From: Lewinella sp. IMCC34183
Lineage (GTDB): Bacteria > Bacteroidota > Bacteroidia > Chitinophagales > Saprospiraceae
DNA length: 64,000 nt
Assembly (NCBI RefSeq): GCF_003390915.1
Contig: NZ_QMEM01000001.1
Coordinates: 806,001-870,000 of the forward strand
Direction of reading: 5' to 3'
The position numbers and the translations under genes are program-made. Below, piece by piece: positions 5,935-29,889 of the stretch. Below the pieces are notes generated by a model. It had not been told where the DNA came from, did not search any database, and was given only the letters and a program-made list of their open reading frames with translations. Position 1 is the stretch's first letter. Each line of letters begins with the position of its first letter.

Positions 5935-8329
5935 TCCGAAGCGGCTTATTCGTCTGCAACATATGCTGGATCCGCTCGAGCGTCTTCTGTTCGCCGCAGA
6001 GGCTCAGGAAGGCTTCCCGCTCGATGTCCAGGAGGTACTGCTCGCTTACCTGCTGGGTGCCGGTGAGGTCACCGCCACAGAGTACCCAGGCGATCTTCTT
6101 GGCGATCTTGATGTCGTGGGCGCTGGCGAAATGCCCCTTCTGCAGCTCGTTGGCGGCGGCGTAGAGGGCGGCCAGTCCACCGCGACCGAGCACGGTGATG
6201 TCGTCGCGCTGCCGGGGCATCGTGTAGCCGTCGTTGGCCAGGTCCAGGACCATGCTCTTGGCTTCGGTGATGTTGCGGTCCTTGTTGACCACGATCTTGT
6301 CGCGGCCCTCGATCAGGTACCCGTAGTTGTAGGCTTCGTAGCCGCTGGTGGAGACGGAAGCCATCGCGACCGTCTTGAAGCGGTCGATCAGCGTCGGGAT
6401 CATCACGTCGCCCTCGAAGAAGCTGTCGCTGGCGCGCAGGGCGAATTCCTTGGTGCCGCCCCCGCCCGGGATCACGCCGATGCCGGCTTCCACCAGTCCG
6501 ATGTAGCTTTCCGCGGCCACGGCGCCCGCGTCGCAGTGCATCAGGCTTTCGCAGCCGCCGCCGAAGACGTAGCCCTGCGTCGCCGCGACCACCGGGATGG
6601 CCGAGTAGCGCAGCCGCATCACGCTCTGCTGGAAGAGGTTGACGGCCTGGTTGAGCTCGTCGAATTCCTGTTGGTACGCCAGCTGCGCGATGAGCATCAG
6701 GTTGGCGCCCACGCTGAAGTTGTCGGCGTTGTTACCGAGGACCATGCCGCGCCAGCCCTCTTCCTCCAGTTTCGTGATGGCCTCCTGGTAGCCGCGCAGT
6801 ACGCCCTCGCCGATGCTGTTGTGGGCACTGGTGAATTCCAGGCAGGCTACGCCGTCGCCGATGTCGTGGAGGGTCACCTCGCTGTTCTGGTAGACCGGCG
6901 TCTGCTCGCGGTAGTTATCCAGGATGATGAAGGCCTCCGTACCCGGCTTTACTTTGTAGGATTGGCTCTCCAGGTCGTAGTACTTGAGCTTGCCGTCCTC
7001 CCGCTTGTAGAAGGTGTCGTGGCCGGCGGACTGCATGTCCTTCACCCACTGCGGCAGGGTAGCTCCGTCGGCTTCCGCGGCGTCGATACCGGCCTGGAGG
7101 CCTACCGCGTCCCAGTACTCGAAGGGCCCCATCTTCCAGGCGTAACCGGCGCGCATGGCGTCGTCGATGCTGTAGATGTTGTCGCTGATCTCGGGGATGC
7201 GGTTGGCGGAATAGGCGAACAGCCCGGCCAGCATGCGGCGGACGAATTCCCCACCCTTGTCTTCGGCCTTGAACAAGGCCTGTACCCGGCGGGGCAGGTC
7301 GTCGATCTGCTTGGCGGTCTTCAGGCTGGGCAGGTCTTCCCGCTGCGGTGCCTCGTACTCCAGGGTTTTCAGGTTCAGGCCGAGGATGACGCGGTTACCC
7401 TCGTCGTCGGTGGTCTTTTTGTAAAAGCCCTGCCCGGATTTGTTGCCCAGGAAATCGTTGTCAAGCAGGAACTGGTAATACTGGGGGATCTCCATCACCG
7501 CGCTGGCCTCGTCGTCGGGGGCGTTCTCGCGAATACCGGTCATCACGTGGGCGCCGGTGTCGTGGCCCACCAGGTCGCCCAGCCGGAAGGTGCCGGTCTT
7601 CGGCCGCCCGAGGGCGGGACCGGTGAGCTTGTCCACCGTTTCGATCCGCAGGCCGAGGTCGTCGGTGAGTTGGTAGCTTTTCGAGAGGCTGAAGACCCCG
7701 ATGCGGTTACCGATGAAGGCGGGGGTATCCTTCGCCATGACGGTCGTCTTGCCCAGGTAAAGCTGCCCGTACCGCATGAAAAAGTCGAGCACCTCCTCCT
7801 TGGTATCGGGACCGGGAATGATCTCGAACAGCCGCAGGTAGCGCGCGGGGTTGAAAAAGTGGGTCCCGCAGAAGTGCTGCCGGAAATCCTCGCTCATCCC
7901 CTCCTGGATCATCCGGATGGGGATACCCGAGGTGTTGGTGGTGACCAGGCTGCCCCTGCGGCGCACCTCATCCACCTGCTTGAGCACCTTCTGCTTGATG
8001 TCCAGCCGCTCGACTACCACCTCGATGATCCAGTCGTAGTCGCCGAGTTGCTCCATGTCGTCGGTGAAGTTGCCCACCGTGATGCGCTTGACGAAGTCCT
8101 TATCGTACAGCGGGGCGGGCTTGGACTTAATGGCCGCCTGCAGGGCCTGGGCGGCTACCGAGTTGCGTACGGCGGAGCGGGTCTCGGTCGCATCCATATC
8201 GCGGGGCAAGATGTCGAGCATCAGCACTTCCAGGCCGACGTTGGCGAAGTGACAGGCGATGCCGGAACCCATGACGCCGGAACCTAAGACCGCGACGCGG
8301 CGAATGTGACGGGAGGGAGTGGAGGTCAT
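5930..8329 (-). CDS. 3-hydroxyacyl-CoA dehydrogenase / enoyl-CoA hydratase multifunctional protein
   Basis: Carries out hydration of enoyl-CoA and oxidation of 3-hydroxyacyl-CoA in beta-oxidation. Order of domains: N-terminal NAD-binding fold (RRVAVLGSGVMGSGIACHFANVG, residues about 10-30), 3-hydroxyacyl-CoA dehydrogenase helical domains (about 190-400), then a crotonase-like region (about 480-720) with GGGCESLMHCDAGAVAAESYIGLVEAGIGVIPGGGG split across motifs. This dehydrogenase-first order is that of FadN-type proteins, not E. coli FadB. ATG 8329 was preferred over the ATG at 8389 because it begins just before the Rossmann strand and gives 799 residues. An inverted repeat lies 14 bases upstream. 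The thiolase follows downstream. Confidence 0.9.
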   Translation of the reverse strand: MTSTPSRHIRRVAVLGSGVMGSGIACHFANVGLEVLMLDILPRDMDATETRSAVRNSVAAQALQAAIKSKPAPLYDKDFVKRITVGNFTDDMEQLGDYDWIIEVVVERLDIKQKVLKQVDEVRRRGSLVTTNTSGIPIRMIQEGMSEDFRQHFCGTHFFNPARYLRLFEIIPGPDTKEEVLDFFMRYGQLYLGKTTVMAKDTPAFIGNRIGVFSLSKSYQLTDDLGLRIETVDKLTGPALGRPKTGTFRLGDLVGHDTGAHVMTGIRENAPDDEASAVMEIPQYYQFLLDNDFLGNKSGQGFYKKTTDDEGNRVILGLNLKTLEYEAPQREDLPSLKTAKQIDDLPRRVQALFKAEDKGGEFVRRMLAGLFAYSANRIPEISDNIYSIDDAMRAGYAWKMGPFEYWDAVGLQAGIDAAEADGATLPQWVKDMQSAGHDTFYKREDGKLKYYDLESQSYKVKPGTEAFIILDNYREQTPVYQNSEVTLHDIGDGVACLEFTSAHNSIGEGVLRGYQEAITKLEEEGWRGMVLGNNADNFSVGANLMLIAQLAYQQEFDELNQAVNLFQQSVMRLRYSAIPVVAATQGYVFGGGCESLMHCDAGAVAAESYIGLVEAGIGVIPGGGGTKEFALRASDSFFEGDVMIPTLIDRFKTVAMASVSTSGYEAYNYGYLIEGRDKIVVNKDRNITEAKSMVLDLANDGYTMPRQRDDITVLGRGGLAALYAAANELQKGHFASAHDIKIAKKIAWVLCGGDLTGTQQVSEQYLLDIEREAFLSLCGEQKTLERIQHMLQTNKPLRN

Positions 8330-8342
8330 ATCATGATCGTTT

Positions 8343-8356
8343 AGCGAAAATTCGCT
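8343..8356. promoter_or_regulatory. Possible operator upstream of the beta-oxidation genes
   Basis: AGCGAA-AA-TTCGCT is a perfect 6-bp inverted repeat ending 14 bases before the ATG of the FadB-like gene. Its size and place fit an operator for a TetR/FadR-like regulator, but no such regulator gene is in the window. Inference only. Confidence 0.35.
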
Positions 8357-8393
8357 GGCTAAAGTAGGTAAAAGGCATTGGGACCCCAAAAGT

Positions 8394-8411
8394 TGACCGG
8401 CTTTCCGGTCA
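8394..8411 (-). terminator. Hairpin terminator overlapping the stop codon of the multispan protein gene
   Basis: TGACCGG-AAAG-CCGGTCA (minus strand) is a perfect 7-bp stem with a 4-base loop, followed by ACTTTTGG. The stem begins with the TGA stop of the gene at 8409-9884. It separates that gene from the downstream beta-oxidation operon. The T-run is short, so efficiency is uncertain. Confidence 0.5.
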
Positions 8412-9884
8412 GCGATCGGGCAGCTTCTGCAATTTTGCCGCGATGGCGTCCCGCTCCCGGGCCGTGAGGTTCCGGTACGGTTGCAGGCTATCGAGGCTAA
8501 AGTAGGTACCGTTCATCGCGCGGATCGGTTCAATGCGGAAGCTGCCGAGGTACACCCGCGGGGAGAGGGTATCGTACTGGCCGGGGCTCAGTGGCTTGAG
8601 GGTCACCGCGGGCTCCTGCCCCCCGAGCGTCGCCTGCAACAGCGTTTCGTTCGGTAGTCCCCAGTGCATGCCGAAGTAGGGTGCGTAAGCATCCGCCGGC
8701 TCCAGGACGAACTTGGTACCAGGCAGCTCCCGCAATTCTCCGACCAGGGTCGTAAGGTTGGTCAGCCGCCGGTCGAAGTACCCATAGCTCCCGGCGATCG
8801 CCGCCAGACGAATACCGAATACCAGTAGCATCCCTAGCGCGGCCACTTTCGCGCGATTGCGCAGCAGCGGAATAAAGTGCAGCACGAAGGGGGTAGCCAA
8901 GATAAGCCCGAAGCCCATCCACTCACTCTCGACGTAGAAAAGCATATCCCGGTCGAAGGCTCCCGGGTAGGTCAGGCATACCAGCAGGTAGTAGCCCGCC
9001 GCCGCGCCGACCGTGGCGGCCAGCTGGCACCAGCGCCGCTCCCGCAAGAGGGCAGCTGCGCCGAGCAGGGCCACGGGCAGCAACAGCCAGTAGTCGTGGA
9101 GCAGGTACTGCTGCATGGTGGTGCTCTGCCCGTTGGTCAGACTTGCGGTAAGGGTGTCCCAGCTTAGATTAGCGACCCCCTTCAGTTTATGCCCGTCGTA
9201 CCAGCTGTCGCGGCTCCAGGCGTAGCGCGCCACACCGCCGCAGCCGATGACCAGCGAAAAACACAGCCAGCGCCGCACCTGCGCGCGCCGCCACGGTTGG
9301 TGGACGCCTTCCAGACCGAGGTATATCCAGAGGTAGGCCAGGGACGGCGCCACCAGCAGGTGGGTATTGGTGGCCAAGACCACTAGTAGGGAAAGCAGCA
9401 GGTACTGCCACCAGGTAACGCCCTGCTTGCGGGTATCCACGTAGGTGTATGCGCCCAGAAAGAGGATGAGGTAAGCTACGGCCTGGTGGATCTCGTTGTT
9501 GGGCCAGTAGTAGCCATCGGACACGATGAGGGTGAGGTAGCATACCAGTAGCGTCGCCAGACCGTACTGCTTCCAGCGTCCCCCGACGACCAACACCACC
9601 GCGGTGTAGAAAAGATAAAAGCTAAGGGAGTACGCCAACAGCACTGCAGGGAGCGGCAGCCCCATCCTGCCCGTCAGCCACGGAAAGGCCTGGGTGACGT
9701 AGGCGCCGTAGCGGTGCTCCGATATGACGGGCCACCCGCCGTCGAGGATCTCGTAGGTAAGAAAGGCCGGGTCCAGGAACAACATCCGCTGCCGGTAGGT
9801 AAGGGCCGCGCCGGTCAGCAGCAGAAGCAGCACGGCCAGCGCCACCCGGTAGGCCATCCGTGCCGCCGCGCCCCCTTCCCCCAT
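8409..9884 (-). CDS. Multispan membrane protein of unknown function
   Basis: 491 residues from ATG 9884, which overlaps the TGA of the upstream lipoprotein (ATGA); a longer in-frame extension upstream lies inside that gene and is unlikely. About ten hydrophobic helices begin at ALAVLLLLLTGAAL. A periplasmic loop after TM1 contains LDPAFLTYEILDGGWPVISEHRYGAYVTQAFPWL, and the C-terminal 130 residues appear soluble. The layout resembles GT-C-type or O-antigen-related polytopic proteins, but I find no DD-type catalytic motif that I trust. It is co-transcribed with a lipoprotein and near a YfhO-like protein, suggesting an envelope role. Confidence 0.75.
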   Translation of the reverse strand: MGEGGAAARMAYRVALAVLLLLLTGAALTYRQRMLFLDPAFLTYEILDGGWPVISEHRYGAYVTQAFPWLTGRMGLPLPAVLLAYSLSFYLFYTAVVLVVGGRWKQYGLATLLVCYLTLIVSDGYYWPNNEIHQAVAYLILFLGAYTYVDTRKQGVTWWQYLLLSLLVVLATNTHLLVAPSLAYLWIYLGLEGVHQPWRRAQVRRWLCFSLVIGCGGVARYAWSRDSWYDGHKLKGVANLSWDTLTASLTNGQSTTMQQYLLHDYWLLLPVALLGAAALLRERRWCQLAATVGAAAGYYLLVCLTYPGAFDRDMLFYVESEWMGFGLILATPFVLHFIPLLRNRAKVAALGMLLVFGIRLAAIAGSYGYFDRRLTNLTTLVGELRELPGTKFVLEPADAYAPYFGMHWGLPNETLLQATLGGQEPAVTLKPLSPGQYDTLSPRVYLGSFRIEPIRAMNGTYFSLDSLQPYRNLTARERDAIAAKLQKLPDR

Positions 9885-16094: not shown

Positions 16095-16240
16095 GGGACC
16101 GGACCGCGGACGGGGTAGCCGAATCACACATATAGACCCCAATTTTCCACATTTGTGTGTTTTTGACGCAGAAGAAGGCGGCGGCGGCCAATCGATCAGT
16201 ATTCGATTCCTATATTGGCCGGATAACGTCACCTAACCGC

Positions 16241-17647
16241 ATGCAAAATCCTATTGTCGCCGACGACTTCCTTCTGGAATCAGACGTGGCCCGCGACCTC
16301 TACCATACTTACGCCGCGGGTGCGCCCATCATCGATTACCACTGCCATCTGCCTCCGGCTCAGCTGGCCAACGACCATTCCTTCAAGAACCTGACCGACG
16401 TCTGGCTGCGCGGCGACCACTACAAGTGGCGGGCCATGCGGGCCAACGGCATCCCCGAGGACGGCATCACCGGCTCGGCCTCCGACCGGGAGAAGCACCG
16501 CAACTGGGCCGCCACCCTGCCCTATACCATGCGCAATCCGCTCTACCACTGGTCGCACCTCGAACTCGACCGGTACTTCGGCGTCAGTGACCTCCTGGGG
16601 CCGGACAATGCCGATGCCGTCTACGACCGCTGTACGGAGCAGCTGCAGCAGCCGGACTTCAGCGTCCGCTCCCTCGTGAAGCGTATGAACGTGAAGGTGA
16701 TCTGCACCACCGACGACCCCACCGATGACCTGGCCCACCACCGGGCCATCCGCGAGGACCCCTTCGGCTGTCAGGTACTGCCGGGTTTCCGGCCGGACAA
16801 GGCCATCCTCATCGCTGCGCCGGGCTATACCGACTACCTCGACCGGCTGGGCGAGGTGGCCGATATCGATATCCGGACCTACGACGACCTGGTCGACGCG
16901 CTCCGCAGCCGCATGGAGTACTTCCACGAACTGGGGTGCCGGATCTCCGACCACGGCCTCAACGAGCTGTGCGACACGGAGTATACCGATAAGGAGATCC
17001 GCAGCATCTTCTCCCAGATCCGCTCCGGCATGGCCGTCGGCAGTATCGAGGCCGAGCAGTTCCAGACGGCCCTGCTGGTCGAGCTCTGCAAGGAGTACCA
17101 CCGCCTGGGTTGGACGCAGCAGTTCCACCTCGGTGCCCTGCGCAACAACAACGACCGCATCCTGCGCAAGCTCGGCGCGGACGCCGGCGTGGACAGCATC
17201 GGCGACTTCCTGCAGGCCCGCGGCCTGGCCCGCCTGCTCAATACCCTCGACAGCAGCGACCAGCTCACCAAGACCATCGTTTACAACCTGAACCCGGCCG
17301 ACAACGAGGTCATCGCCACCATGATGGGCAACTTCCAGGACGGCAGCGTCGCCGGCAAAATGCAGTACGGCTCCGCCTGGTGGTTCCTGGACCAGCTCGA
17401 CGGCATGGAAAAACAAATCAACGCCCTGTCCAACATGGGCCTGCTCAGCCGCTTCGTCGGTATGCTCACGGACAGCCGCTCCTTCCTTTCCTTCCCCCGC
17501 CACGAATACTTCCGCCGGTTGCTCTGCAATATGTTCGGACAGGACATCGAGCGCGGACTGCTGCCGGACGACCGCAAGTTCATCGGCGGCCTGATCGAGA
17601 ACATCTGTTACACCAACGCTAAAAACTATTTCAATTTCCCCGCATGA
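16241..17647 (+). CDS. uxaC: Glucuronate (uronate) isomerase
   Basis: Interconverts D-glucuronate with D-fructuronate, and D-galacturonate with D-tagaturonate, the first step of hexuronate breakdown. 468 residues from ATG 16241, which is the start matching the family N-terminus (FLLESDVARDLYHTYAAGAPIIDYHCHLPP). H34 and H36 in DYHCH are the metal or active-site His pair of this amidohydrolase-like family. Further family marks include TDDPTDDLAHH and QFHLGALRNNN and the ending FIGGLIENICYTNAKNYF. Its stop overlaps the kdgK start (ATGA at 17644), so translation is coupled. Confidence 0.96.
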   Translation: MQNPIVADDFLLESDVARDLYHTYAAGAPIIDYHCHLPPAQLANDHSFKNLTDVWLRGDHYKWRAMRANGIPEDGITGSASDREKHRNWAATLPYTMRNPLYHWSHLELDRYFGVSDLLGPDNADAVYDRCTEQLQQPDFSVRSLVKRMNVKVICTTDDPTDDLAHHRAIREDPFGCQVLPGFRPDKAILIAAPGYTDYLDRLGEVADIDIRTYDDLVDALRSRMEYFHELGCRISDHGLNELCDTEYTDKEIRSIFSQIRSGMAVGSIEAEQFQTALLVELCKEYHRLGWTQQFHLGALRNNNDRILRKLGADAGVDSIGDFLQARGLARLLNTLDSSDQLTKTIVYNLNPADNEVIATMMGNFQDGSVAGKMQYGSAWWFLDQLDGMEKQINALSNMGLLSRFVGMLTDSRSFLSFPRHEYFRRLLCNMFGQDIERGLLPDDRKFIGGLIENICYTNAKNYFNFPA

Positions 17648-18678
17648 AAGTTGTCACCTTCGGAGAGATCATGCTCCGCCTTACCCCCCCGGGACACCTG
17701 CGTTTCAGCCAGGCCTCCAGCTTCGACGTCGTCTACGGTGGCGGAGAAAGCAACGTAGCCGTGGCCCTCGCTAATTATGGCCTCGACGCCCACTTCGTGA
17801 CCCGTCTGCCCGATAACGACATCGGTGAGTGCGCGCTGATGGAACTGCGCAAGCGCAACGTCAAGACCGACCACGTCATCCGCGGCGGCGAGCGCCTGGG
17901 CATCTACTTCCTGGAAATGGGCGCCGTTCAGCGGGGCTCGAAGGTGGTTTACGACCGGGCCTACTCGGGCATGGCTACCATCGAAAAGGGCATGGTCGAC
18001 TGGGATGCCGTCCTGAAGGACGCCGACTGGTTCCACTGGACCGGCATCACGCCGGCCCTTTCGCAGGGAGCCGCCGACGCCTGCCTCGAGGCCATCCAGG
18101 CCGCCAACCGCCTGGGCGTGCCCGTATCCACCGACCTCAACTACCGCGCCAAGCTGTGGAAGTACGGCAAGGACCCCAAGGAGGTGATGCCCGACCTCGT
18201 CGAGGGCTGCGACGTCATCCTGGGCAACGAGGAGGACGCCGAGAAGCACTTCGGCCTTCACCCCGAAGAGGTGGACGTCACCGCCGGAGGTGAAATGGAC
18301 GGCAAGAAGTACCTGCCCGTGCTGAAGGAACTCATGAACCGCTTTCCCCGCTGCAAGATGACCATCACCACCCTGCGGGGGTCCGTCAGCGCCAGCCACA
18401 ACAGCTGGTCGGGCGTCCTCTACGACGGCGATAAGCTGTACGAGACCGAGACCTACCAGATCACCGACATCGTGGACCGCGTCGGCGGCGGCGACAGCTT
18501 CATGTCCGCCCTCATCTACGGCCTCCTCACCTTCAAGGACGACAAGCAAAAAGCCCTGGATTTCGCGGTAGGAGCCTCCTGCCTCAAGCACACCATTTAC
18601 GGCGACGCCAACCTGGTCACCGTAGACGAAGTAAATAAACTCATCGAAGGCGACGGCTCCGGCCGCGTCGCCCGCTAA
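17644..18678 (+). CDS. kdgK: 2-dehydro-3-deoxygluconate kinase (PfkB family)
   Basis: Phosphorylates 2-keto-3-deoxygluconate (KDG) to KDPG. 344 residues. PfkB signatures are visible: VVTFGEIMLRLTPPG at the start, YGGGESNVAVALANYGLDAHFVTRLPDNDIGE, and the anion-hole motif DRVGGGDSFMSALIYG with catalytic D284. A KDG substrate is supported by position between uxaC and eda. Overlaps uxaC by four bases and is separated from eda by a 60-base gap holding a perfect 28-bp palindrome. Confidence 0.93.
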   Translation: MKVVTFGEIMLRLTPPGHLRFSQASSFDVVYGGGESNVAVALANYGLDAHFVTRLPDNDIGECALMELRKRNVKTDHVIRGGERLGIYFLEMGAVQRGSKVVYDRAYSGMATIEKGMVDWDAVLKDADWFHWTGITPALSQGAADACLEAIQAANRLGVPVSTDLNYRAKLWKYGKDPKEVMPDLVEGCDVILGNEEDAEKHFGLHPEEVDVTAGGEMDGKKYLPVLKELMNRFPRCKMTITTLRGSVSASHNSWSGVLYDGDKLYETETYQITDIVDRVGGGDSFMSALIYGLLTFKDDKQKALDFAVGASCLKHTIYGDANLVTVDEVNKLIEGDGSGRVAR

Positions 18679-18738: not shown

Positions 18739-19407
18739 ATGTCCGTACATACCCGCCTGCAAACCCTGTCTGTTATCCACGACCAGGGCATCATGCCACT
18801 TTTCTACCACCACGACGCCGGGCTCGGCAAGCAAGTCCTGAAGGCCTGCTACGACGCCGGTGGCCGCCTGCTGGAATTCACTAACCGGGGCGACTTCGCC
18901 CACGAGACCTTCCGCGAGCTTAACCTCTACGCCCGCCAGGAACTGCCCGAAATGGTCCTGGGCGTAGGCTCCGTCAACGATGCGGCCACCGCTGCCCTCT
19001 ACATGCAGCTGGGGGCCAGCTTCATTGTCTCCGCCTCGCTGCGGGAAGACGTAGCGCTGGTCTGCAACCGCCGTAAGGTGCCCTACCTGCCGGGCTGCGC
19101 TACCCTCACGGAGATCGGCCGCGCCGAGGAACTGGGCTGCGAGATCGTGAAGCTCTTTCCGGGCAGCGTCTACGGCCCCGAATTCATCAAGGCCATCCGC
19201 GGTCCCCAACCCTGGACTAGCATCATGCCCACCGGCGGCGTGACCACCGAACTCCACAACCTGAAAGGCTGGTTCTCGGCCGGCGCCGTGTGCGTAGGGC
19301 TGGGTTCCCAACTCATCGGCAACTCGGTGCTCAAGGAGGGCAAGTTCTCCGAACTCACCGACAGCGTGCGGGAGGCCCTCAGAGTAGCCAAAGAGCTGCG
19401 CGCATGA
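18739..19407 (+). CDS. eda: KDPG / 4-hydroxy-2-oxoglutarate aldolase
   Basis: Splits 2-keto-3-deoxy-6-phosphogluconate into pyruvate and glyceraldehyde-3-phosphate. 222 residues, with the Schiff-base Lys K138 in CEIVKLFPGSVYGPEF and the catalytic Glu E46 in LLEFTNRGDF, where the family often has E(V/I)TxR. The phosphate-binding segment MPTGGVTTELHNLKGWFSAGAVCVGLGSQL is split between beta strands as expected. Its TGA overlaps the ATG of dctP (ATGA at 19404), tying the aldolase to the transporter. Confidence 0.94.
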   Translation: MSVHTRLQTLSVIHDQGIMPLFYHHDAGLGKQVLKACYDAGGRLLEFTNRGDFAHETFRELNLYARQELPEMVLGVGSVNDAATAALYMQLGASFIVSASLREDVALVCNRRKVPYLPGCATLTEIGRAEELGCEIVKLFPGSVYGPEFIKAIRGPQPWTSIMPTGGVTTELHNLKGWFSAGAVCVGLGSQLIGNSVLKEGKFSELTDSVREALRVAKELRA

Positions 19408-20396
19408 GAACGCTACTGTCTATTTGCTGCCTACTGACCCTGCTGCTGAGCGGCTGCGCCGAGGACCTGGAGGGAAACCGCGTCCTGCGGCTGGCCCACG
19501 GACTGGATACGGGCCACCCCGTTCACCTCGGCATGGTCTATATGGCCGAGCGGCTGGCCGAGCTGTCCAACGGAGAGCTTACCATCAGCATCTACCCCAA
19601 CAACCAGCTGGGCAGCGAGCGGCAGTGCCTCGAACTCCTCCAGATCGGCAGCCTCGACATGACTAAGGTCTCGGCCGCCGTGCTCGAGAACTTTTCGCCC
19701 GAGATCGCCGTGCTTTCCCTGCCGTACGTATTTCGCGGCCGGGAACACATTTACAAGTTTCAGGACAGCCCCCTGGGCCGGGAAATGCTCAGCGCCAGCG
19801 AGGAGTTCCGGCTGCGGGGGCTAGTCTACTTCGACGCCGGACAGCGCTCCTTCTACACCAAGGACCACCCCATCAACGTACCCGCCGACCTGCAGGGCGA
19901 AAAGATCCGCGTGCAGCTCAGCGCCACCGCGATCGCGATGGTACAGGCGCTGGGCGGCTCCCCCACCCCCATCTCCTACGGAGAACTCTACACTGCCCTC
20001 CAGCAGGGCGTCGTGGATGGTGCGGAAAACAACCCGCCCAGTTTTTACACCTCCCGGCATTACGAGGTCTGCAAGTACTATACCCTCGACGAGCACACCG
20101 CCGTCCCCGACGTGCTGATGATCGGCACCGAAGCCTGGGCGCGGCTCAGCGAGCAGGAACGGTCGTGGCTACAGGCCGCGGCGGACGAGGCCGTGGTCTA
20201 CCAGCGGGAGCTCTGGCAGGAAGCCGAGGCGGATGCCCTGGCCAAGGTAGAAGCCGAAGGCGTACAGATCATCCGCCCGGACAAGGGCCCCTTCATCGAG
20301 CAGACGGCGCCCATCCTGGAAAGCTACCGCAGTCAGCCGCGGCTGTACTCGCTGATTCAACAGATCATTGCAATGGCCCCCGAAGATGAAGGATAA
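19404..20396 (+). CDS. dctP: TRAP transporter solute-binding lipoprotein (DctP type)
   Basis: Captures the substrate and delivers it to the DctQM membrane complex. 330 residues from ATG 19404. MRTLLSICCLLTLLLSGCAED is a lipoprotein signal with lipidated C18. This differs from the soluble periplasmic DctP of Proteobacteria but suits retention at a membrane. Family marks: LRLAHGLDTGHPVHLGMVYMAE (split), NQLGSERQCLELLQIGSLDM, and the ligand-carboxylate Arg in GEKIRVQ followed by GGSPTPISYGELYTALQQGVVDGAENNP. Downstream of uronate genes, so a hexuronate or related sugar acid is the likely ligand (inference). Confidence 0.93.
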   Translation: MRTLLSICCLLTLLLSGCAEDLEGNRVLRLAHGLDTGHPVHLGMVYMAERLAELSNGELTISIYPNNQLGSERQCLELLQIGSLDMTKVSAAVLENFSPEIAVLSLPYVFRGREHIYKFQDSPLGREMLSASEEFRLRGLVYFDAGQRSFYTKDHPINVPADLQGEKIRVQLSATAIAMVQALGGSPTPISYGELYTALQQGVVDGAENNPPSFYTSRHYEVCKYYTLDEHTAVPDVLMIGTEAWARLSEQERSWLQAAADEAVVYQRELWQEAEADALAKVEAEGVQIIRPDKGPFIEQTAPILESYRSQPRLYSLIQQIIAMAPEDEG

Positions 20397-20814
20397 GGTT
20401 GACAAAGTACTGGGCTACGCCCTGGTGATCATGCTCGCCGTTATGACGCTCGACGTGCTGTGGGGGGTCTTCACCCGGTACGTCATGAGCAATCAGGCGA
20501 GCTGGTCCGAAGAACTGGCCCGCTTCCTCCTCATCTGGATCGGTATCCTCGGGGCCGCCTACGCCAGCGGACAACGGTTGCACCTCTCCATCGACCTGCT
20601 GAATAATAAGCCCGTGCGGTTGATCGCGGTGCTGATCATCCTGTTCGCCTTCGGGGTGCTGGTCCTCGGCGGTTCCCGCCTCGTACTGCTGACCGCCGAA
20701 CTGGGTCAGCGGTCCCCGGCCCTGGGCATCCCGATGTCGCTCATCTACTCCGTCGTGCCGATCAGCGGACTTCTCATTATCTACTACCGCCTGTCGGACT
20801 TTAAAGCCACCTGA
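20386..20814 (+). CDS. dctQ: TRAP transporter small permease (DctQ type)
   Basis: 142 residues from ATG 20386, overlapping the end of dctP by 11 bases; an ATG at 20368 lies deeper in dctP and is less likely. Four transmembrane helices follow the DctQ pattern: VLGYALVIMLAVMTLDVLWGVFTRYV, then SWSEELARFLLIWIGILGAAYASG with the conserved SWxEExARxLLIWxxxLGA signature, then two C-terminal helices. It stabilises the large permease. Its TGA overlaps the dctM ATG by one base. Confidence 0.93.
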   Translation: MKDKVDKVLGYALVIMLAVMTLDVLWGVFTRYVMSNQASWSEELARFLLIWIGILGAAYASGQRLHLSIDLLNNKPVRLIAVLIILFAFGVLVLGGSRLVLLTAELGQRSPALGIPMSLIYSVVPISGLLIIYYRLSDFKAT

Positions 20815-22100
20815 TGGAAGTCGCCATCCTCGTACTCACCTTCGTCGTTCTGATCGGTCTGGGCATGCCCATTGCCTGGTGTATCGGCATCAGCGCCACC
20901 GTGACGATGCTGGTGAGCATCCCTACCCTTCCGGCGCTGACCACCGTGGCCCAGCAGACCGCTACCGGCCTCGACAGTTTCAGTCTGCTGGCTATCCCCT
21001 TCTTCATTCTGGCCGGGCAGATCATGAACCAGGGTGGCATCGCCCGCCGGCTCATTGCCTTTGCCCGCTCATTAGTGGGCGGCCTTCCGGGCGGCTTGGC
21101 GCACGTCAACGTCATCGCAGCGATGCTCTTCGGGGCCATCGCCGGCTCGGCGGCGGCCGCGGCGTCGGCCATCGGGGAAACCGTGGGCAAGGCCATGGAA
21201 AAAGAAGGCTACAGTAAGGAGTTCTCCGCGGCCGTCAATATCACCTCTTCTACCACGGGGCTGATTATTCCGCCGAGCAATATCCTCATCGTCTACAGCC
21301 TCGCCAGCGGCGGCGTCAGCATCGCGGCGCTCTTTCTGGCGGGCTACATCCCGGGCCTGCTGGTGGGCCTGCTGCTTATGATCGTGGCCGCCATCATCTC
21401 CAAGCGAAAGGGGTACACCACGCGGGGCACCTTCTCCCTCGGTGAGATCGGCCGCACCTTCGTCGGGGCGCTTCCGAGCCTGCTGCTGCTCGTTATCGTC
21501 ATTGGCGGCATCGTTGCCGGCGTTTTCACCGCCACGGAGGCCTCGGCCGCCGCGGTGCTGTACTGCCTGGGACTGAGTTTTATTTATCGGGAAGTCAAGC
21601 TGAAGGACTTACCGCAGGTCTTCCTCAACGCAGTCGGGACCACCTCGATCGTCATGATCCTGATCGCCACGTCCATCTCGATGTCCTGGATCATGGCCTT
21701 CGAGAACATTCCCCAGGACATCACCAGCTTCCTGCTGGCGACCAGCGATAACCCGATCGTGATCATGATCATCATCAACCTAATCCTGCTCTTCGTGGGC
21801 GTGTTCATGGACATGACGCCGGCCGTACTGATCTTCACCCCGATCTTCCTGCCGGTCGCGCAGCAGATCGGCATCGATCCGGTTCACTTCGGCATCATCA
21901 TGATCCTCAACCTCTGCATCGGTCTCTGTACCCCCCCGGTGGGTGCGGTACTCTTCGTAGGAGTTGGCGTGGCCGGTACGACGATCCAGAAGGTCGTCCG
22001 CCCGATGCTGCCCTTTTTCGTAGCTATGCTCGTCGCCCTGCTGATCGTGACGCTCGTGCCGGGCCTCAGCACCTGGCTCCCGGCTCAGTTCGGATTCTAG
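20814..22100 (+). CDS. dctM: TRAP transporter large permease (DctM type)
   Basis: 428 residues with about 11-12 hydrophobic segments. This subunit carries out transport, which in studied TRAP systems is coupled to a sodium gradient. Family marks: LAIPFFILAGQIMNQGGIARRLI, AAMLFGAIAGSAAAAASAIGETVG, NITSSTTGLIIPPSNILIVYSL and the late LNLCIGLCTPPVGAVLFVG. The last gene of the uxaC-kdgK-eda-dctPQM set. It converges on the KtrB gene, with 23 bases between the stops. Confidence 0.94.
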   Translation: MEVAILVLTFVVLIGLGMPIAWCIGISATVTMLVSIPTLPALTTVAQQTATGLDSFSLLAIPFFILAGQIMNQGGIARRLIAFARSLVGGLPGGLAHVNVIAAMLFGAIAGSAAAAASAIGETVGKAMEKEGYSKEFSAAVNITSSTTGLIIPPSNILIVYSLASGGVSIAALFLAGYIPGLLVGLLLMIVAAIISKRKGYTTRGTFSLGEIGRTFVGALPSLLLLVIVIGGIVAGVFTATEASAAAVLYCLGLSFIYREVKLKDLPQVFLNAVGTTSIVMILIATSISMSWIMAFENIPQDITSFLLATSDNPIVIMIIINLILLFVGVFMDMTPAVLIFTPIFLPVAQQIGIDPVHFGIIMILNLCIGLCTPPVGAVLFVGVGVAGTTIQKVVRPMLPFFVAMLVALLIVTLVPGLSTWLPAQFGF

Positions 22101-22123
22101 GCGGCGCGGCGCGGGTGCGGGGC

Positions 22124-23470
22124 CTACCCCTCAATCGCAATATCCCCGTCCTGCCCGTCACCGGGGTCGGCCACCTCACCGGATTGCGGCGAATGGCCGA
22201 AGACGGCCATGATCACGGACAGTGTACCTAATCGCCCGAGAATCATCAGCACCATCAGGAGCACCTTCCCGGACGGGCCCACTTCCCCCGTCGTACCCAG
22301 CGAGAGCCCTACCGTTCCGAGGGCGGAGACCACCTCAAAGATGGGGGCCAGGCTATCGTCGGGCGTGCGAACGAGCAGCACGAAACCCGCCGTGACCACT
22401 GCGATCAGGTTGGCAATCAACAGGGCCACCGCCAGGTGGACCCGCTGTTGGGTGAGCCGGGCCCCGAGCAGCACCACGTCGCGCCGGCGGCGCACGACCG
22501 ATACGACGTAGGCCACCCCCGTGGCGGCCGTGGTGTTCTTGATGCCGCCACCCGTACCCGAGGGGGACGCCCCGATGAACATGAAGACCGTCAGCAACAG
22601 GTAGCTGGCGGCACTCAGGCGGTCGATGGGCACGGTGCTGAAGCCCGTGGTGGAGATGGTGCTTACGGCCTGAAATGCTCCCGCCATGAGGTCCTGCTGC
22701 CAGCGACCGCCGCCCCGGAAGTAGGGATCGTAGAGGAGCAGCGTCGCCGTCACGCCCACCAGGCTGACGGACATGACCAGCAGTATCACCCGGGTCGTGA
22801 TGCCCAGCCGCTCGGTCGTACCCCGCAGCCGGTCGTAGACGTCCACGAAGAAGAGGAAGCCGAACGAACCGGCCAGGCTGAGCAGGGAGACGGTCACGTT
22901 GACCGCAACACTGTCCGTGAAGCCCTGCAGGCTGTCGGTAAAGAGGTGGAATCCCGCGGTGCAGAAAGCGCTGACCGCGATGAAGATGCCCTTCCAGACC
23001 GGCATACTCTCTCCGTGGGCGGAAAAGGCGAACGACAGCACGATACCGCCGATGAGCTCGCACGCGACCGTGAACCAGAGGAGCTTGATCAGGAACGTGC
23101 GGTGGTCGGAGCCCTCGGGTACGGTGTAATCATTCTCTACCATCTCCGCCTCTTCCCGATCGGGCGACTTTACCCCGTAAGGGCTATCCATGAGGAGCCA
23201 GCCGGCCAGCGACATATACCCCAGCCCCCCTACCTGGATCAGCAGCAGGATTACGACCTGCCCCGTGAAGGAATAGGTATCGGCCACGTTGAGGGTCGTG
23301 AGGCCGGTCGTCGTCAGCGCCGAGGTTGCCGTGAAGCAGGAGTCCAGCCAGGAGAGCGATTGTGAAGTGCAGATATTCAGGCTGAGCGCCCCACACCCCA
23401 CCGCGAGCAGCACGAAGTAGCCGATCAGCAGCTTCTGCAGGGGCGTCGCCTTGGTGCGGTACAGGTTCAC
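22124..23470 (-). CDS. TrkH/KtrB family potassium transporter membrane subunit
   Basis: 448 residues from a GTG start at 23470. The four pore loops with their selectivity-filter glycines are visible: TSALTTTGLTTLNV (about residue 50), SAFCTAGFHLFTDSL, TISTTGFSTVPIDR and SALGTVGLSLGTTGE. The size fits KtrB better than TrkH (usually near 480). KtrB uptake is commonly sodium-dependent. No KtrA/TrkA regulatory subunit lies nearby. It is divergent from the sodium-pumping rhodopsin across a 131-base gap, a suggestive pairing. Confidence 0.9.
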   Translation of the reverse strand: MNLYRTKATPLQKLLIGYFVLLAVGCGALSLNICTSQSLSWLDSCFTATSALTTTGLTTLNVADTYSFTGQVVILLLIQVGGLGYMSLAGWLLMDSPYGVKSPDREEAEMVENDYTVPEGSDHRTFLIKLLWFTVACELIGGIVLSFAFSAHGESMPVWKGIFIAVSAFCTAGFHLFTDSLQGFTDSVAVNVTVSLLSLAGSFGFLFFVDVYDRLRGTTERLGITTRVILLVMSVSLVGVTATLLLYDPYFRGGGRWQQDLMAGAFQAVSTISTTGFSTVPIDRLSAASYLLLTVFMFIGASPSGTGGGIKNTTAATGVAYVVSVVRRRRDVVLLGARLTQQRVHLAVALLIANLIAVVTAGFVLLVRTPDDSLAPIFEVVSALGTVGLSLGTTGEVGPSGKVLLMVLMILGRLGTLSVIMAVFGHSPQSGEVADPGDGQDGDIAIEG

Positions 23471-23601
23471 ACCCGCTGAAAGGGAAGAGAACCGAATTTA
23501 GTTGCGCCGATCTAGTGGATTCCGGCTAATTCAGGTAACAACGCGTCTCCGCAACAAATTTTGCCTAACTGAATTTAACCGATACAAGCAACACACGTGA
23601 T

Positions 23602-24447
23602 ATGGACCAGCTAGGAAATGCAAACTTTGAAAATTACGTCGCCCTGCGGGACGGAATCTCCGAGATGGCCTACCAGATGGTGGCCCACTGCCTCACGCTC
23701 GGTTATGCAGTAATGCTGGCCGCCCTGTTCTACTTCGTGGTCACTACCCGGTATTCCGCCCCCCGCTTTCGCATCTCCTCGGTGTTGTCCGGGGTGGTGA
23801 TGGTGTCCGCATTTCTCCTGCTCTACGTGCAGTCACAGAACTGGAACAACACCTTCAACTTCGACCTGGAGAGCGGCAAGTACGTCCTCGCCACGGGCGA
23901 CGATCTGTTCAACAACGGATACCGGTACCTGAACTGGCTGATCGATGTACCCATGCTGCTGTTCCAGATCCTGTTCGTGGTATCCCTGACCAAGAGCAGT
24001 TTCAGCAGTATCCGCAATCAGTTCTGGTTTTCGGGCGTCTTGATGATCCTGACCGGCTACGTCGGGCAGTACTACGAGGTGACCAACCTTACCGCCTTTT
24101 TCGTGTGGGGCGCGATCTCTACCGTGTTTTTCCTGCACGTACTCTGGGTTATGAACCGGGTCATCAAGGAGGGAAAGGAAGGCCTCTCCGAGCCGGCCCG
24201 CGCGGTCCTGAACCGCATCTGGATCGTCTTCCTCGTGTCCTGGTTTCTCTATCCGGGAGCCTACCTGATGCCGCACCTGCTGGGCATCGAGGGCGGCTTC
24301 TTCAACGAAACCGGCATTGTTGCCCGGCAGATGACCTACACGGTAGCCGATATCGTTTCGAAAGTGATCTACGGGATTCTGCTTACCCAGTTGGCGCAGA
24401 TCATGAGCCGTGAGGAAGGCTACGACTACGCAACCCTCCACCGGTAA
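23602..24447 (+). CDS. Light-driven sodium pump rhodopsin (KR2-like, NDQ motif)
   Basis: 281 residues, seven transmembrane helices. Helix C reads NGYRYLNWLIDVPMLLFQIL, giving R108, N111, D115 and Q122, the N-D-Q triplet that defines sodium-pumping rhodopsins (N112, D116, Q123 in KR2). The retinal Lys is K254 in TVADIVSKVIYG, with counter-ion D250. The N-terminus QLGNANFENYVAL is almost the same as KR2 (LGNANFENF), which caps the KR2 protomer. Expected to export Na+ in light and to bind retinal made by the Blh enzyme encoded 190 bases downstream. Divergent from a KtrB potassium transporter. Ion specificity is transferred from KR2. Confidence 0.97.
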   Translation: MDQLGNANFENYVALRDGISEMAYQMVAHCLTLGYAVMLAALFYFVVTTRYSAPRFRISSVLSGVVMVSAFLLLYVQSQNWNNTFNFDLESGKYVLATGDDLFNNGYRYLNWLIDVPMLLFQILFVVSLTKSSFSSIRNQFWFSGVLMILTGYVGQYYEVTNLTAFFVWGAISTVFFLHVLWVMNRVIKEGKEGLSEPARAVLNRIWIVFLVSWFLYPGAYLMPHLLGIEGGFFNETGIVARQMTYTVADIVSKVIYGILLTQLAQIMSREEGYDYATLHR

Positions 24448-24453
24448 GGGAGT

Positions 24454-24480
24454 GGCCGGTCAGCAGACGGTCTGCCGGCC
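24454..24480 (+). other. Imperfect hairpin after the sodium-pump rhodopsin gene
   Basis: GGCCGG-T-CAG, an 8-base loop, then CTG-CCGGCC: a 9-bp stem with one bulge, starting 6 bases after the rhodopsin stop codon. No T-run follows. It could partly attenuate read-through into blh or protect the rhodopsin mRNA end. Inference. Confidence 0.4.
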
Positions 24481-24637
24481 ATAGGTCAAGCCTGAACAAT
24501 TCAGCAGGCTGATGCGATAATAACGCACAATTCGTTGTAATTGTACTCAATTTGTCCGTTCTTGCCCGTCTTAACCCCGGCGGACCCATCCAAACACCTG
24601 AGGTACCCCCCGTCCCCTGAATACTTCCACCACCCGA

Positions 24638-25510
24638 TTGCGTCCCCTGCCGTGGATCATCCGCGGCCTGACCCTGACCGTGCTCCTGCTCGCTCCCTCC
24701 GGAGGTGGCGCGGTCGTGGCGCTGATTCTGGTGGCCCTGGGTATTCCGCACGGAGCGGCCGACCACCTCATTTACCGCAGCCAGCACGCCGGCACCGGTA
24801 CTTCGTGGAGCCTTCGCTTTTCTGCTTACTACCTGTTACTGATTGCCGCCTATGCCTTGCTCTGGCTGTTGGTTCCCCTGCTGGCGCTGATACTGTTCCT
24901 GGCGGTTTCGGTGTACCACTTCGGTCAGTCACGGGCGGGTGATCCAGTCGAGCAATTGCTGTGGGGGCTTTTCGTGCTGGGCTTCCCGGTGCTGGGGCAT
25001 TTCGCGCAGGCCCAACCGGTCATCGCGGGGATGATCGGCTTCTCCCCGGACCTACCGGGGTGGGTGACGGCGTATTTGCCTTCCCTGTTCGTTCTTTCGG
25101 TGGGAGCGGTGGCTATCCGGTGCGACGACTACGAGCGATTGCTGGATCTCGCCCTCCTCGCGGCCGTTTTCCTCTCCGTGGACCTGCTGCTCGGCTTCGC
25201 CATATACTTTTTACTCTGGCATTCCTTGCCGGCCGCACGGGATCAGTGGCTGTACCTCCGACAGCATTCCCTCTCCGGGCGCCTCTCAACCTATCTGCTG
25301 CAGCTGCTGCCACTGACATTGGGGGCCTTCGTGACGCTCGCGCTGGTGTACTGGTTCGTACTGCGTCAAGCCGACGGCACGGCGCTGCCCCTGAGTCACC
25401 TGTTCATCCTTGTTTCGCTGATCACCCTTCCCCACGCCTTGCTGGTCAGCGTTGTGTACCGGACACCCCCGGGGGAAGAGGCTACCACTCCACCGGCTCA
25501 CCGTCCTTAA
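24638..25510 (+). CDS. blh: Brp/Blh family beta-carotene 15,15'-dioxygenase
   Basis: Cleaves beta-carotene to two retinal molecules in the membrane. 290 residues with about eight hydrophobic helices. The metal-binding His motifs of the family are present: LGIPHGAADHLIY (about residue 37), SVYHFGQSRAG (about 90), FLLWHSLPAARDQW (about 195) and ITLPHALLVSVVY (about 270). The first usable start is TTG 24638: an in-frame stop lies at 24599-24601 and no ATG or GTG precedes the first motif. It follows the sodium-pump rhodopsin and serves both rhodopsins in the window. Its end overlaps the convergent SDR gene by 29 bases. Confidence 0.93.
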   Translation: MRPLPWIIRGLTLTVLLLAPSGGGAVVALILVALGIPHGAADHLIYRSQHAGTGTSWSLRFSAYYLLLIAAYALLWLLVPLLALILFLAVSVYHFGQSRAGDPVEQLLWGLFVLGFPVLGHFAQAQPVIAGMIGFSPDLPGWVTAYLPSLFVLSVGAVAIRCDDYERLLDLALLAAVFLSVDLLLGFAIYFLLWHSLPAARDQWLYLRQHSLSGRLSTYLLQLLPLTLGAFVTLALVYWFVLRQADGTALPLSHLFILVSLITLPHALLVSVVYRTPPGEEATTPPAHRP

Positions 25511-26174
25511 AAAAGCCACCCGTCGGACCGCCGTCCGGCAGATTGACCGCCCAGCAAATACTGCGCGCGCCTTCCGATACGTCCCGCTCCGCTTCCGGTC
25601 CGCCCATGCGTGTCCGTACCCACCCGGGGCACACGGCGTTGACGAGGATGTTGTCGTCGCTCAGGTCGGCAGCGAGCTTAACGGTCAGCATGTTCAGGGC
25701 CGTCTTGGACACCGCGTACGCGGGCGTTCCGGGCCAGGAATTGACGAAGGAGCCGCTGGAACTGGATACGTTAACGATACGCCCGTCTCCGGCTCGCGAG
25801 AACAGGGCGTGCAGGGCCTTGACCATCCGCCAGGGGCCGAGCGTATTTACCTGCAGGGCCTCCTCTACGATCGCCAGGTCCGCATCGAGCGTGGTCTGGT
25901 AGGTATCGTAGTGAATGCCGGCATTGTTGACGAGCACGTGGACGGTGCCCCAGGTCTCCCGCAGGTAGGCAGCCAGTTCGTCGATGCTCCGCGGGTCGGC
26001 GACGTCGCAGGGGTGAAAGTCGACCGAGAGCCCCCCCGCCCGGAACGCTTCGGCGACGTCGCGACCCGCCGCCGACCGGCTGGTCAGCACGACGCGGTAC
26101 CCTTCCTCTGCCAACTGCCGGACCACTTCCCGGCCCAGTCCGCGGTTTCCGCCGGTGACTACTGCATTCTTCAT
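25482..26174 (-). CDS. SDR family NAD(P)-dependent oxidoreductase
   Basis: 230 residues, classical short-chain dehydrogenase: cofactor motif VTGGNRGLGREVV (residues 6-18), LVNNAGIHYDTY, catalytic Ser in VNVSSSSGSF, and Y-x-x-x-K as YAVSK. The post-catalytic stretch NAVCPGWVRTRMGG and the C-terminus LPDGGPTGGFFKDGEPVEW resemble carbonyl-reductase-like SDRs of plants and bacteria. The substrate is unknown. Overlaps blh tail to tail; divergent from the OsmC gene (66-base gap). Confidence 0.9.
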   Translation of the reverse strand: MKNAVVTGGNRGLGREVVRQLAEEGYRVVLTSRSAAGRDVAEAFRAGGLSVDFHPCDVADPRSIDELAAYLRETWGTVHVLVNNAGIHYDTYQTTLDADLAIVEEALQVNTLGPWRMVKALHALFSRAGDGRIVNVSSSSGSFVNSWPGTPAYAVSKTALNMLTVKLAADLSDDNILVNAVCPGWVRTRMGGPEAERDVSEGARSICWAVNLPDGGPTGGFFKDGEPVEW

Positions 26175-28410: not shown

Positions 28411-29889
28411 TTAGTCGACGTTGTCGTGCAGAAAGGAGTTGTTGCGGCGCAGCGGGACGTCCTCGTCGTCGGTAATATTCCAGCGGCTCAGGTCGTGCTG
28501 GTCGCTGCTGGGCTTGGTATTGTCGAGCTGAATGTTGCGGCGCAGGTAGGCGGGCTGGTTTTCCAGCTCGTTGACCACTTTGGGGTTGCTCAGCTTGGGC
28601 AGCTCGGTACGCTGGCGCAGGGCCTCGCGGCGCTCCTGGTCGCGGATTTCCATCTCGCGGCGCTGGGCCTCGCGGCGGGCGTCCTCCTCTTCCTGCATGA
28701 AGTTCTGGGTGAAGCTGCCCCCGTCGCGGCGGCGGGCCCGCAGCCGGGCCTTGGCTTCTTCCATATCCTCGAATTCGAAGGTGTTCGACTGGGCCGGCTT
28801 GCCGTAGCCCGCGGGATCGGTCTCACCGGTAATCTCCTCCAGGGAGCTGCGGCGGGGTGCCTTGGGGGCGTCCTTTTCCTCGTCGAGGTGTACGATCTGC
28901 CGTTCGGGCGCCACGTTACGGTTGGCGGCCTTCTTGTCACCGAAGCCGGTAGCGATTACCGTGACGCTGATCTTGTCGCCCAGCGCCTCGTCGAAGCAGT
29001 TACCCCAGATCAGGTCGGTGCCGTAGCCCGCCTCTTCCTGTACGAACTCCGTGATCTCGAAGATCTCGTCCATCGTCACTTCACGGGTACCGCTGGTGAT
29101 GTTGAGCAGGATGTGGTTGGCTCCGCGGATGTCGTTGTCCTCGAGCAGGGGGCTATGGAGTGCCTGGTCGACGGCCACGCGGGCGCGGTCGTCGCCGTCG
29201 GCGCTGGCGGTACCCATGATCGCCACGCCGCTGTCGCGCATGACGGTGTTGACGTCCTCGAAGTCGACGTTGACGTAGCCGGCTACGGTGATGATCTCCG
29301 CGATGCCCTTGGCCGCGGTGGTCAGGATATTATCGGCCTTGGAAAAGGCCTCGCTGAGGTTCAGGTTGCCGTGGATCTGCCGGAGCTTGTCGTTGGAGAT
29401 CACAATGAGGGTGTCCACGTTGTCCTTCAGTTCCTGGAGTCCGTCCATGCCGTTGTTGGCACGCCGGCGTCCTTCGAAGGTGAAGGGCAGGGTCACGATA
29501 CCCACCGTTAGGATATTCATCTCCCGTGCGGTACGGGCGATGATGGGAGCGGCTCCGGTACCCGTACCACCGCCCATGCCGGCGGTGACGAAAAGCATGC
29601 GGCAGTTGTTGTCGAGGTATTTTTTTACCTCCTCGATACTCTCCTCGCAGGCGAGCTTGCCCACGTTCGGTTTGCTGCCCGCTCCGCGGCCTTCGGTGAG
29701 GTTGGGGCCGAGCTGCACCTTGGTCGGTACGTTGCTCAACTCCATGGCTTGGTGGTCGGTGTTACAGATGGCAAAGTCGACCCCGACGATGCCCTGGTTG
29801 TACATGTGATTCACGGCGTTGCTGCCGCCGCCGCCGACGCCGATTACTTTGATGATGGGGGATTCCCCCTGTGGAAAGTCAATAGTCAT
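28411..29889 (-). CDS. ftsZ: Cell division protein FtsZ
   Basis: Tubulin-like GTPase that forms the division ring. 492 residues, longer than E. coli FtsZ (383) because of a long charged linker. GTP-binding motifs: IKVIGVGGGGSNAVNHM, the tubulin signature GGGTGTGAAP at residues 106-115, and FEGRRRANNGMDGLQELK. The linker (about 320-470) contains many Arg/Glu repeats (EEEDARREAQRREMEIRDQ). It ends DVPLRRNNSFLHDNVD, the Bacteroidota type of C-terminal peptide for partner binding. The last gene of the dcw cluster; 65 bases after ftsA, with a small hairpin between (29906-29921). Confidence 0.98.
   Translation of the reverse strand: MTIDFPQGESPIIKVIGVGGGGSNAVNHMYNQGIVGVDFAICNTDHQAMELSNVPTKVQLGPNLTEGRGAGSKPNVGKLACEESIEEVKKYLDNNCRMLFVTAGMGGGTGTGAAPIIARTAREMNILTVGIVTLPFTFEGRRRANNGMDGLQELKDNVDTLIVISNDKLRQIHGNLNLSEAFSKADNILTTAAKGIAEIITVAGYVNVDFEDVNTVMRDSGVAIMGTASADGDDRARVAVDQALHSPLLEDNDIRGANHILLNITSGTREVTMDEIFEITEFVQEEAGYGTDLIWGNCFDEALGDKISVTVIATGFGDKKAANRNVAPERQIVHLDEEKDAPKAPRRSSLEEITGETDPAGYGKPAQSNTFEFEDMEEAKARLRARRRDGGSFTQNFMQEEEDARREAQRREMEIRDQERREALRQRTELPKLSNPKVVNELENQPAYLRRNIQLDNTKPSSDQHDLSRWNITDDEDVPLRRNNSFLHDNVD

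Follow-up and report, generated by a model that had tools for sequence, protein, structure and literature searches.

Neighbouring genes are one clue to what a light-driven sodium pump does for its host. We asked what can be learned from the gene for a sodium-pump rhodopsin (NaR) in a 64,000-nucleotide stretch of contig NZ_QMEM01000001.1 (positions 806,001 to 870,000 of the forward strand; hereafter the window) from Lewinella sp. IMCC34183, a Neolewinella/Lewinella species whose genome we label G000. NaR lies between a divergent gene for a KtrB-type K+ channel subunit and blh, which encodes a retinal-forming dioxygenase; beyond KtrB stand the genes of a TRAP transporter and of uronate use. A preliminary description of this locus, made from the letters alone, had read the whole arrangement as a light-charged sodium circuit feeding uronate and K+ uptake. 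Our comparisons support that interpretation in part: its K+ half gains support and its TRAP half fails. We propose, with a probability of about 45%, that NaR and KtrB form a small module, set between the TRAP/uronate genes and blh-SDR-ftsZ in three genomes of the Neolewinella group, that would exchange Na+ for K+ in the light.

NaR and KtrB are divergent neighbours

The list of open reading frames (ORFs) and the family searches bore out the gene set originally named (TRAP, KtrB-like, NDQ rhodopsin and Blh; Table 1), and the ORF coordinates agree with its spacing of 23 base pairs (bp) between dctM and KtrB and 131 bp between KtrB and NaR. In the window TRAP and KtrB are convergent, and KtrB and NaR divergent; the genes are therefore not one operon. 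Blh had been placed directly downstream of NaR, and that order is right, with the refinement that a gap of 190 bp separates the two in the window, while in two relatives the frames share 1 bp and 4 bp.

An alignment of NaR to KR2 chains confirmed the motif that had been picked out beforehand, N111, D115 and Q122 falling on KR2 N112, D116 and Q123, and placed H29, S69, L73, D101, R108, D250 and K254 at their KR2 positions as well. What each site does in KR2 we partly assume; we take K254 to be the retinal-binding lysine and D250 the helix-G aspartate. NaR scored about 399 bits against the KR2 chains and 453 bits against 8jh0. Its L73 occupies the site of KR2 L74, where subgroup 1 NDQ rhodopsins carry Leu or Ile, not Glu, according to an extract of PMC11006869. 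Judged by these residues, NaR is a subgroup 1 NDQ sodium-pump rhodopsin, and light-driven outward pumping of Na+ is the activity we would predict for it. Blh scored 166.3 bits against TIGR03753, where the cut-off is 95.25, and was the only Blh that a whole-genome search with PF15461 found in the host, whose genome is 98% complete.

The protein encoded divergently from NaR matched Bacillus subtilis KtrB with 178 bits over residues 7-430, against 31 bits for TrkH. It scored above the cut-off of PF02386 and below that of TIGR00933, the TrkH family potassium uptake protein (266.9 against 331.15 bits). Aligned to B. subtilis KtrB, it keeps all four glycines of the filter (TTTGL, CTAGF, TTGFS and TVGLS). 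The gate residues of the B. subtilis protein are Arg417 and Phe91, as given in an extract of PMC11078986; in an alignment counted by eye, the arginine is kept as R413 and the Phe91 site is occupied by Tyr. Among 60 genomes searched, the host's own included, only the host and two relatives, Lewinella sp. IMCC34191 (G001) and Neolewinella xylanilytica DSM 29526 (G007), have a KtrB of this type that reaches 70% identity, and the next best match is 38% identical. Against 395 genomes of the phylum, no match apart from the window's own gene exceeded 41%, a result that lends no support to the idea that a broader clade of KtrB proteins goes with rhodopsins. The host carries a further KtrB-like gene (G000:C50:513622-514905), 35% identical to the window's KtrB and with an internal TGA.

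The KtrB-NaR-blh order has outlived near-saturation

Nine of the 60 genomes gave a rhodopsin match, and five have an NDQ rhodopsin of at least 73% identity: those of the host, IMCC34191, N. xylanilytica and Lewinella sp. W8 (G016), all of one genus, and an order-level relative (G048). The order of KtrB, divergent NaR, blh, the SDR gene, ftsZ and ftsA is identical in the window, IMCC34191 and N. xylanilytica. In all three the SDR gene, which is also present in six other congeners that we read, forms the right border of the module. Identity to the window's proteins in IMCC34191 and N. xylanilytica, respectively, is 75 and 74% for KtrB, 91 and 88% for NaR, and 55 and 53% for Blh. Synonymous divergence (dS) among the three genomes is 1.1-2.4, and nonsynonymous divergence (dN) is far below dS for KtrB, NaR and Blh. 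Such dS values are near saturation, so the KtrB-NaR-blh order has outlived near-saturation. In a tree of eight genes, six of them TRAP/uronate genes, the host groups with the pair of IMCC34191 and N. xylanilytica with a support of 1.0.

Further K+ genes lie near the pair in these relatives. Between KtrB and TRAP, N. xylanilytica encodes a Na_H_Exchanger/Usp antiporter, presumably of the CPA2 type, a second KtrB (KtrB2) with KtrA, as well as KdpA, KdpC and a KdpD sensor domain; a P-type ATPase between the Kdp genes is taken as KdpB. IMCC34191 has KtrB2-KtrA at a distance of 2 kilobases (kb) from KtrB and the same antiporter at about 14 kb, with no Kdp homologue in the rest of the stretch compared. 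KtrB2 is found in four of 21 genomes of the genus: these two, G006, where it is accompanied by KtrA, and the host, where it lies at C52, unlinked to the window's KtrB, with a KtrA gene beside it.

The TRAP transporter is a neighbour of the insertion site

A DctM homologue is present in all 21 genus genomes (at least 58% identity; matches at the low end may not be strict orthologues), and this NaR in only four. FtsZ, the syntenic anchor, was found in 20 of the 21. It lies within 10 kb of DctM in the host and in six congeners, G017, G013, G004, G018, G012 and G009; in the other genus genomes DctM and FtsZ are farther apart or on separate contigs. We read the DctM-FtsZ regions of these six congeners (ORFs of at least 90 amino acids). 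In G017, G013, G004 and G018 the SDR gene comes straight after dctM, and in G009 and G012 blh stands between the two; none of the six regions holds NaR, and the latter two lack KtrB as well. As in the window, uxaC lies 5' of TRAP in the congeners read. The preliminary description had expected TRAP to be conserved with KtrB, NaR and blh in close relatives. It is not: dctM lies 35 kb beyond KtrB in N. xylanilytica and 99 kb beyond it in IMCC34191, with the orientation of the TRAP operon unchanged. Among 80 NaR loci from other genomes, described below, none has DctM, DctP, DctQ or UxaC in the flanks searched.

We reject a coupling of TRAP to NaR by gene order, given DctM in 21 of 21 genomes, the six NaR-free junctions of dctM with the SDR gene or blh, the distance of dctM from KtrB in the two relatives, and the 80 loci without a TRAP homologue in the flanks searched. 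The TRAP transporter is an insertion-site neighbour, uninformative in its position, and not part of the rhodopsin module; it may profit from a Na+ gradient like any Na+ symporter. On the simplest reading, TRAP-(blh)-SDR-ftsZ came first, and the KtrB-NaR pair was inserted between dctM and blh in an ancestor of the three species. Alternatively, the pair may be older and have been lost elsewhere, or may have been transferred between species. Under either history, TRAP is close by in the window because of where the KtrB-NaR pair sits.

KtrB adjoins NaR in a second lineage

A search for relatives of NaR returned 142 stretches in named genomes, of which the best 80 were kept; many of their contigs offer flanks of less than 10 kb. 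The flanks were searched by profile or phmmer, and at one locus (L090) no closed ORF was obtained for NaR. In general the gene context of NaR is not conserved. Blh lies in the flank of 10 of the 80 loci, and when 281 neighbouring ORFs from 76 loci were clustered, they fell into 205 clusters, the commonest of which, Blh, occurred in 7 loci (four loci in which the NaR ORF was not found were dropped, and the longest ORFs were used, some of them possibly spurious). A TrkH/KtrB gene stands in the flank of three loci, which belong to two lineages; the third of them is that of Cyclobacterium roseum, where KtrA-KtrB is divergent from NaR. When the antiporter, KtrA, KtrB2 and Kdp proteins of N. xylanilytica were used as queries against the 80 loci, only L059, L060 and L073 gave matches.

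Across the genus Cyclobacterium, NaR is present in two of 12 genomes, both with KtrA-KtrB divergent from it, 392 and 406 bp away. The Cyclobacterium KtrB, found in seven of the 12 genomes, is a different protein, 26-27% identical to that of the window. Adjacency of KtrB and NaR occurs, then, in more than one independent lineage, the Neolewinella group and Cyclobacterium. For a chance baseline, PF02386 was searched against 25 of the 80 NaR genomes, giving 41 TrkH-family genes in 113.7 megabases after four split matches were joined by hand. At that density, 0.44 TrkH genes are expected when the flanks of all 80 loci are added up, and 0.06 when only 1 kb to either side is counted. A uniform Poisson model gives adjacency in two independent lineages a probability of 0.0016, in a test that was framed after the result had been seen.

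At both Cyclobacterium loci (L073 and L197) NaR stands between KtrB-KtrA and a block of HmuY-domain and transporter-like genes. In G478 the genes on either side match, and what is absent is the block made up of NaR and the adjoining HmuY and transporter-like genes (names given by eye, except HmuY).

A possible exchange of Na+ for K+ and its alternatives

In the light, NaR would export Na+ and with it positive charge, leaving the membrane more negative inside. K+ could then enter through KtrB down the electrical gradient, with KtrB possibly gated by a KtrA whose gene lies elsewhere in the genome. On balance Na+ would be traded for K+, to the benefit of the cell's salt and osmotic balance, and Blh would provide retinal to NaR and to the cell's other rhodopsins. 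Studied KtrB systems had been described at the outset as commonly importing K+ with Na+, a point on which the sources differ: PMC11078986, a recent structural study, and PMC12059179 describe KtrAB as a K+ channel that ATP and Na+ activate by way of KtrA, and PMC12604602 terms it a Na+/K+ symporter. If the channel view is right, NaR and KtrB would be linked mainly through membrane voltage. An extract of PMC4831467 reports that in Nonlabens sp. YIK11, which has three rhodopsins, light raised rhodopsin expression and not growth; a role in salt balance therefore fits as well as one in energy supply. A stronger version of the proposal makes NaR and KtrB a dedicated light-powered Na+/K+ exchanger pair, a counterpart in function, built of two proteins, to the animal Na+/K+ pump, which came together separately in Neolewinella and in Cyclobacterium, each time with another KtrB paralogue. 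We regard this version as rather unlikely.

Several observations weigh against an exchange by NaR and KtrB. No TrkH/KtrB gene lies in the flank searched of 77 of the 80 NaR loci, so that KtrB and NaR do not pair as a rule, and in the window's ORF list no KtrA adjoins KtrB. The order given in the preliminary description, kept from KtrB through blh in IMCC34191 and N. xylanilytica, breaks down in W8 and in the order-level relative, neither of which has KtrB, KtrA or Blh beside NaR (20 kb and 15.6 kb, respectively). Five Cyclobacterium genomes have KtrB-KtrA with no NaR beside it in the 11.5-12 kb read, KtrB being split by stops in one of the five. FtsZ and FtsA alone place the host, weakly (0.44), with the module-free G013 and G017 and not with IMCC34191 and N. 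xylanilytica. By eye, no clear regulatory element shared by KtrB and NaR is present in the intergenic alignment of the three species; identity is only scattered, mostly close to the NaR start, and for that reason we dropped the idea of an operator common to the two genes. Lower internal Na+ brought about by NaR would, if anything, lessen the activation of KtrA, going by an extract of PMC11078986. TrkH is also a common family and one of several neighbours in which a meaning would have been seen, and its two adjacencies to NaR could be chance.

That the adjacency is incidental, a nomadic NaR having landed by a K+ transporter twice and descent having kept the order in the Neolewinella group, is a serious possibility to which we give somewhat less than an even chance. 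It would account for the variety of NaR neighbours and the scarcity of TrkH/KtrB among them, and the Neolewinella cases, being one clade on eight genes, count as one event. It accounts less readily for an order that survived dS above 1 while TRAP came to lie 35-99 kb away in relatives, for the same divergent layout in a second independent lineage, or for the further K+ genes close by in relatives. KtrB might also serve as a cation leak or safety valve against hyperpolarisation by NaR, and not in K+ accumulation. Channel activation by Na+ bound to KtrA, as in the extract of PMC11078986, and the lack of an adjoining KtrA would suit such a valve; the four filter glycines and the gate arginine are kept, however, which favours ordinary K+ selectivity, and we consider the valve improbable. 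More improbable still is the circuit originally proposed, with TRAP, KtrB and NaR joined in light-charged uptake of uronate and K+. In its favour, the window has the gene sets side by side, and TRAP systems are often Na+-driven. DctM is nonetheless found in the genus regardless of NaR, six congeners have dctM beside the SDR gene or blh in the absence of NaR, two NaR-bearing relatives have it far from KtrB, no NaR locus of the 80 has a TRAP homologue in the flanks searched, and TRAP is convergent with KtrB.

The exchange of Na+ for K+ by NaR and KtrB, our preferred reading, is built of known families; its TRAP link is gone, and its K+ link rests on two lineages. A K+ channel neighbour that recurs in a second lineage replaces a vague sodium circuit with a specific, testable idea: if it is true, N. 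xylanilytica DSM 29526, which has the same gene order, should use light to drive its uptake of K+. In a limited search we found no paper joining sodium pump rhodopsins with Lewinella, or DUF2254 (see below) with rhodopsins, a result that leaves their absence in print unproven.

Other features of the locus and other rhodopsins of the host

The features of the locus are collected in Table 1. The best solved relatives of DctP are 4x8r and 4n8y.

Table 1. Genes and intergenic region around NaR, in window coordinates
Feature	Position	Strand	Basis
uxaC, glucuronate isomerase	16157..17647	+	NF002794, 632 bits
Sugar kinase, probably 2-keto-3-deoxygluconate kinase	17644..18678	+	Below all curated cut-offs; name from context
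eda, KDPG/KHG aldolase	18739..19407	+	NF005499, 331 bits, above cut-off
DctP, TRAP solute-binding protein	19404..20396	+	TIGR00787 (above cut-off), PF03480
DctQ, TRAP small permease	20368..20814, start uncertain (20368 or 20374)	+	PF04290
DctM, TRAP large permease	20814..22100	+	TIGR00786, 455.6 bits, above cut-off
KtrB-type K+ channel subunit	22124..23470	-	PF02386, above cut-off
KtrB/NaR intergenic region, 131 bp, divergent	23471..23601		Three-species alignment
NaR, predicted NDQ sodium-pump rhodopsin, KR2-like, subgroup 1	23602..24447	+	PF01036, above cut-off
blh, beta-carotene 15,15'-dioxygenase (retinal-forming)	24638..25510, TTG start	+	TIGR03753, PF15461
SDR-family gene	25482..26174	-	Family name presumed from its own sequence
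ftsZ, syntenic anchor	28411..29889	-	Name by sequence resemblance

The window holds a second rhodopsin gene (49198-50025, minus strand), with the motif D-T-K. Among solved structures it matches 4hyj best (88 bits), followed closely by 6nwd and 3ddl; we take 4hyj to be the Exiguobacterium rhodopsin. The His of 'AIHYYF' in 4hyj aligns with a Ser in the D-T-K protein. The gene is also present in IMCC34191, in the same neighbourhood, and in G012, and was not found in N. xylanilytica at an E-value of 1e-10. G012, which has both a D-T-K rhodopsin and one with the motif NTQ (chloride-pump type), nonetheless has its blh split into two ORFs (L178, 6658-7486), the second recognised by eye.

Outside the window the host has two further rhodopsin loci, one of them broken. 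The broken locus, L003 (G000:C53:309490-313041), has split frames and an internal stop, with D, S and S at the places of the helix C motif, and is either a pseudogene or an assembly error. The other, L185 (G000:C34:670000-689000), encodes an NTQ rhodopsin (8996-9823, minus strand) followed by a gene for a DUF2254 membrane protein (7784-8989, minus strand). The gap between the two genes is 6-7 bp in the host, IMCC34191, N. xylanilytica and G012; it measures 74 bp in G034, which belongs to a different genus, and 1 bp in Nonlabens sp. (L109). DUF2254 stands beside the NTQ rhodopsin in six of the seven cases examined, G009 lacking it, and at two loci of Aquimarina (L061 and L063) it adjoins the NDQ pump or lies one gene away. 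Among the 80 NaR loci it occurs only at L061, L063 and L109. DUF2254 may be a recurrent partner of rhodopsins; a structure model of the protein from three sequences had a mean pLDDT (predicted local distance difference test) of 50.3, a quality too low for comparing folds. Three matches to plasmid-borne NTQ rhodopsins were near 31% identity.

Comparison with known systems

With KR2 and the other subgroup 1 pumps, the window's NaR shares the NDQ motif, the Leu at the L74 site, the retinal Lys and the helix-G Asp. It differs from them in its gene context beside KtrB, and its pumping is predicted. The window's KtrB resembles B. subtilis KtrB of the KtrAB system in its match over residues 7-430, its four filter glycines and its gate Arg, and differs from it in having no adjacent KtrA and a Tyr at the Phe91 site; its best relative outside the three-genome group is 41% identical (395 phylum genomes). 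Blh is without notable difference from the known dioxygenase, with one copy for several rhodopsins. Like other DctPQM TRAP systems found with genes of uronate catabolism, that of the window has all three subunits together with uxaC and eda; its closeness to KtrB and NaR is seen only in this genome. Nonlabens marinus S1-08 has a trio of H+, Na+ and Cl- pumps, according to an extract of PMC4831467. The host likewise has three kinds of rhodopsin, NDQ, NTQ and D-T-K, and differs in having the D-T-K protein as its third and in its broken fourth locus.

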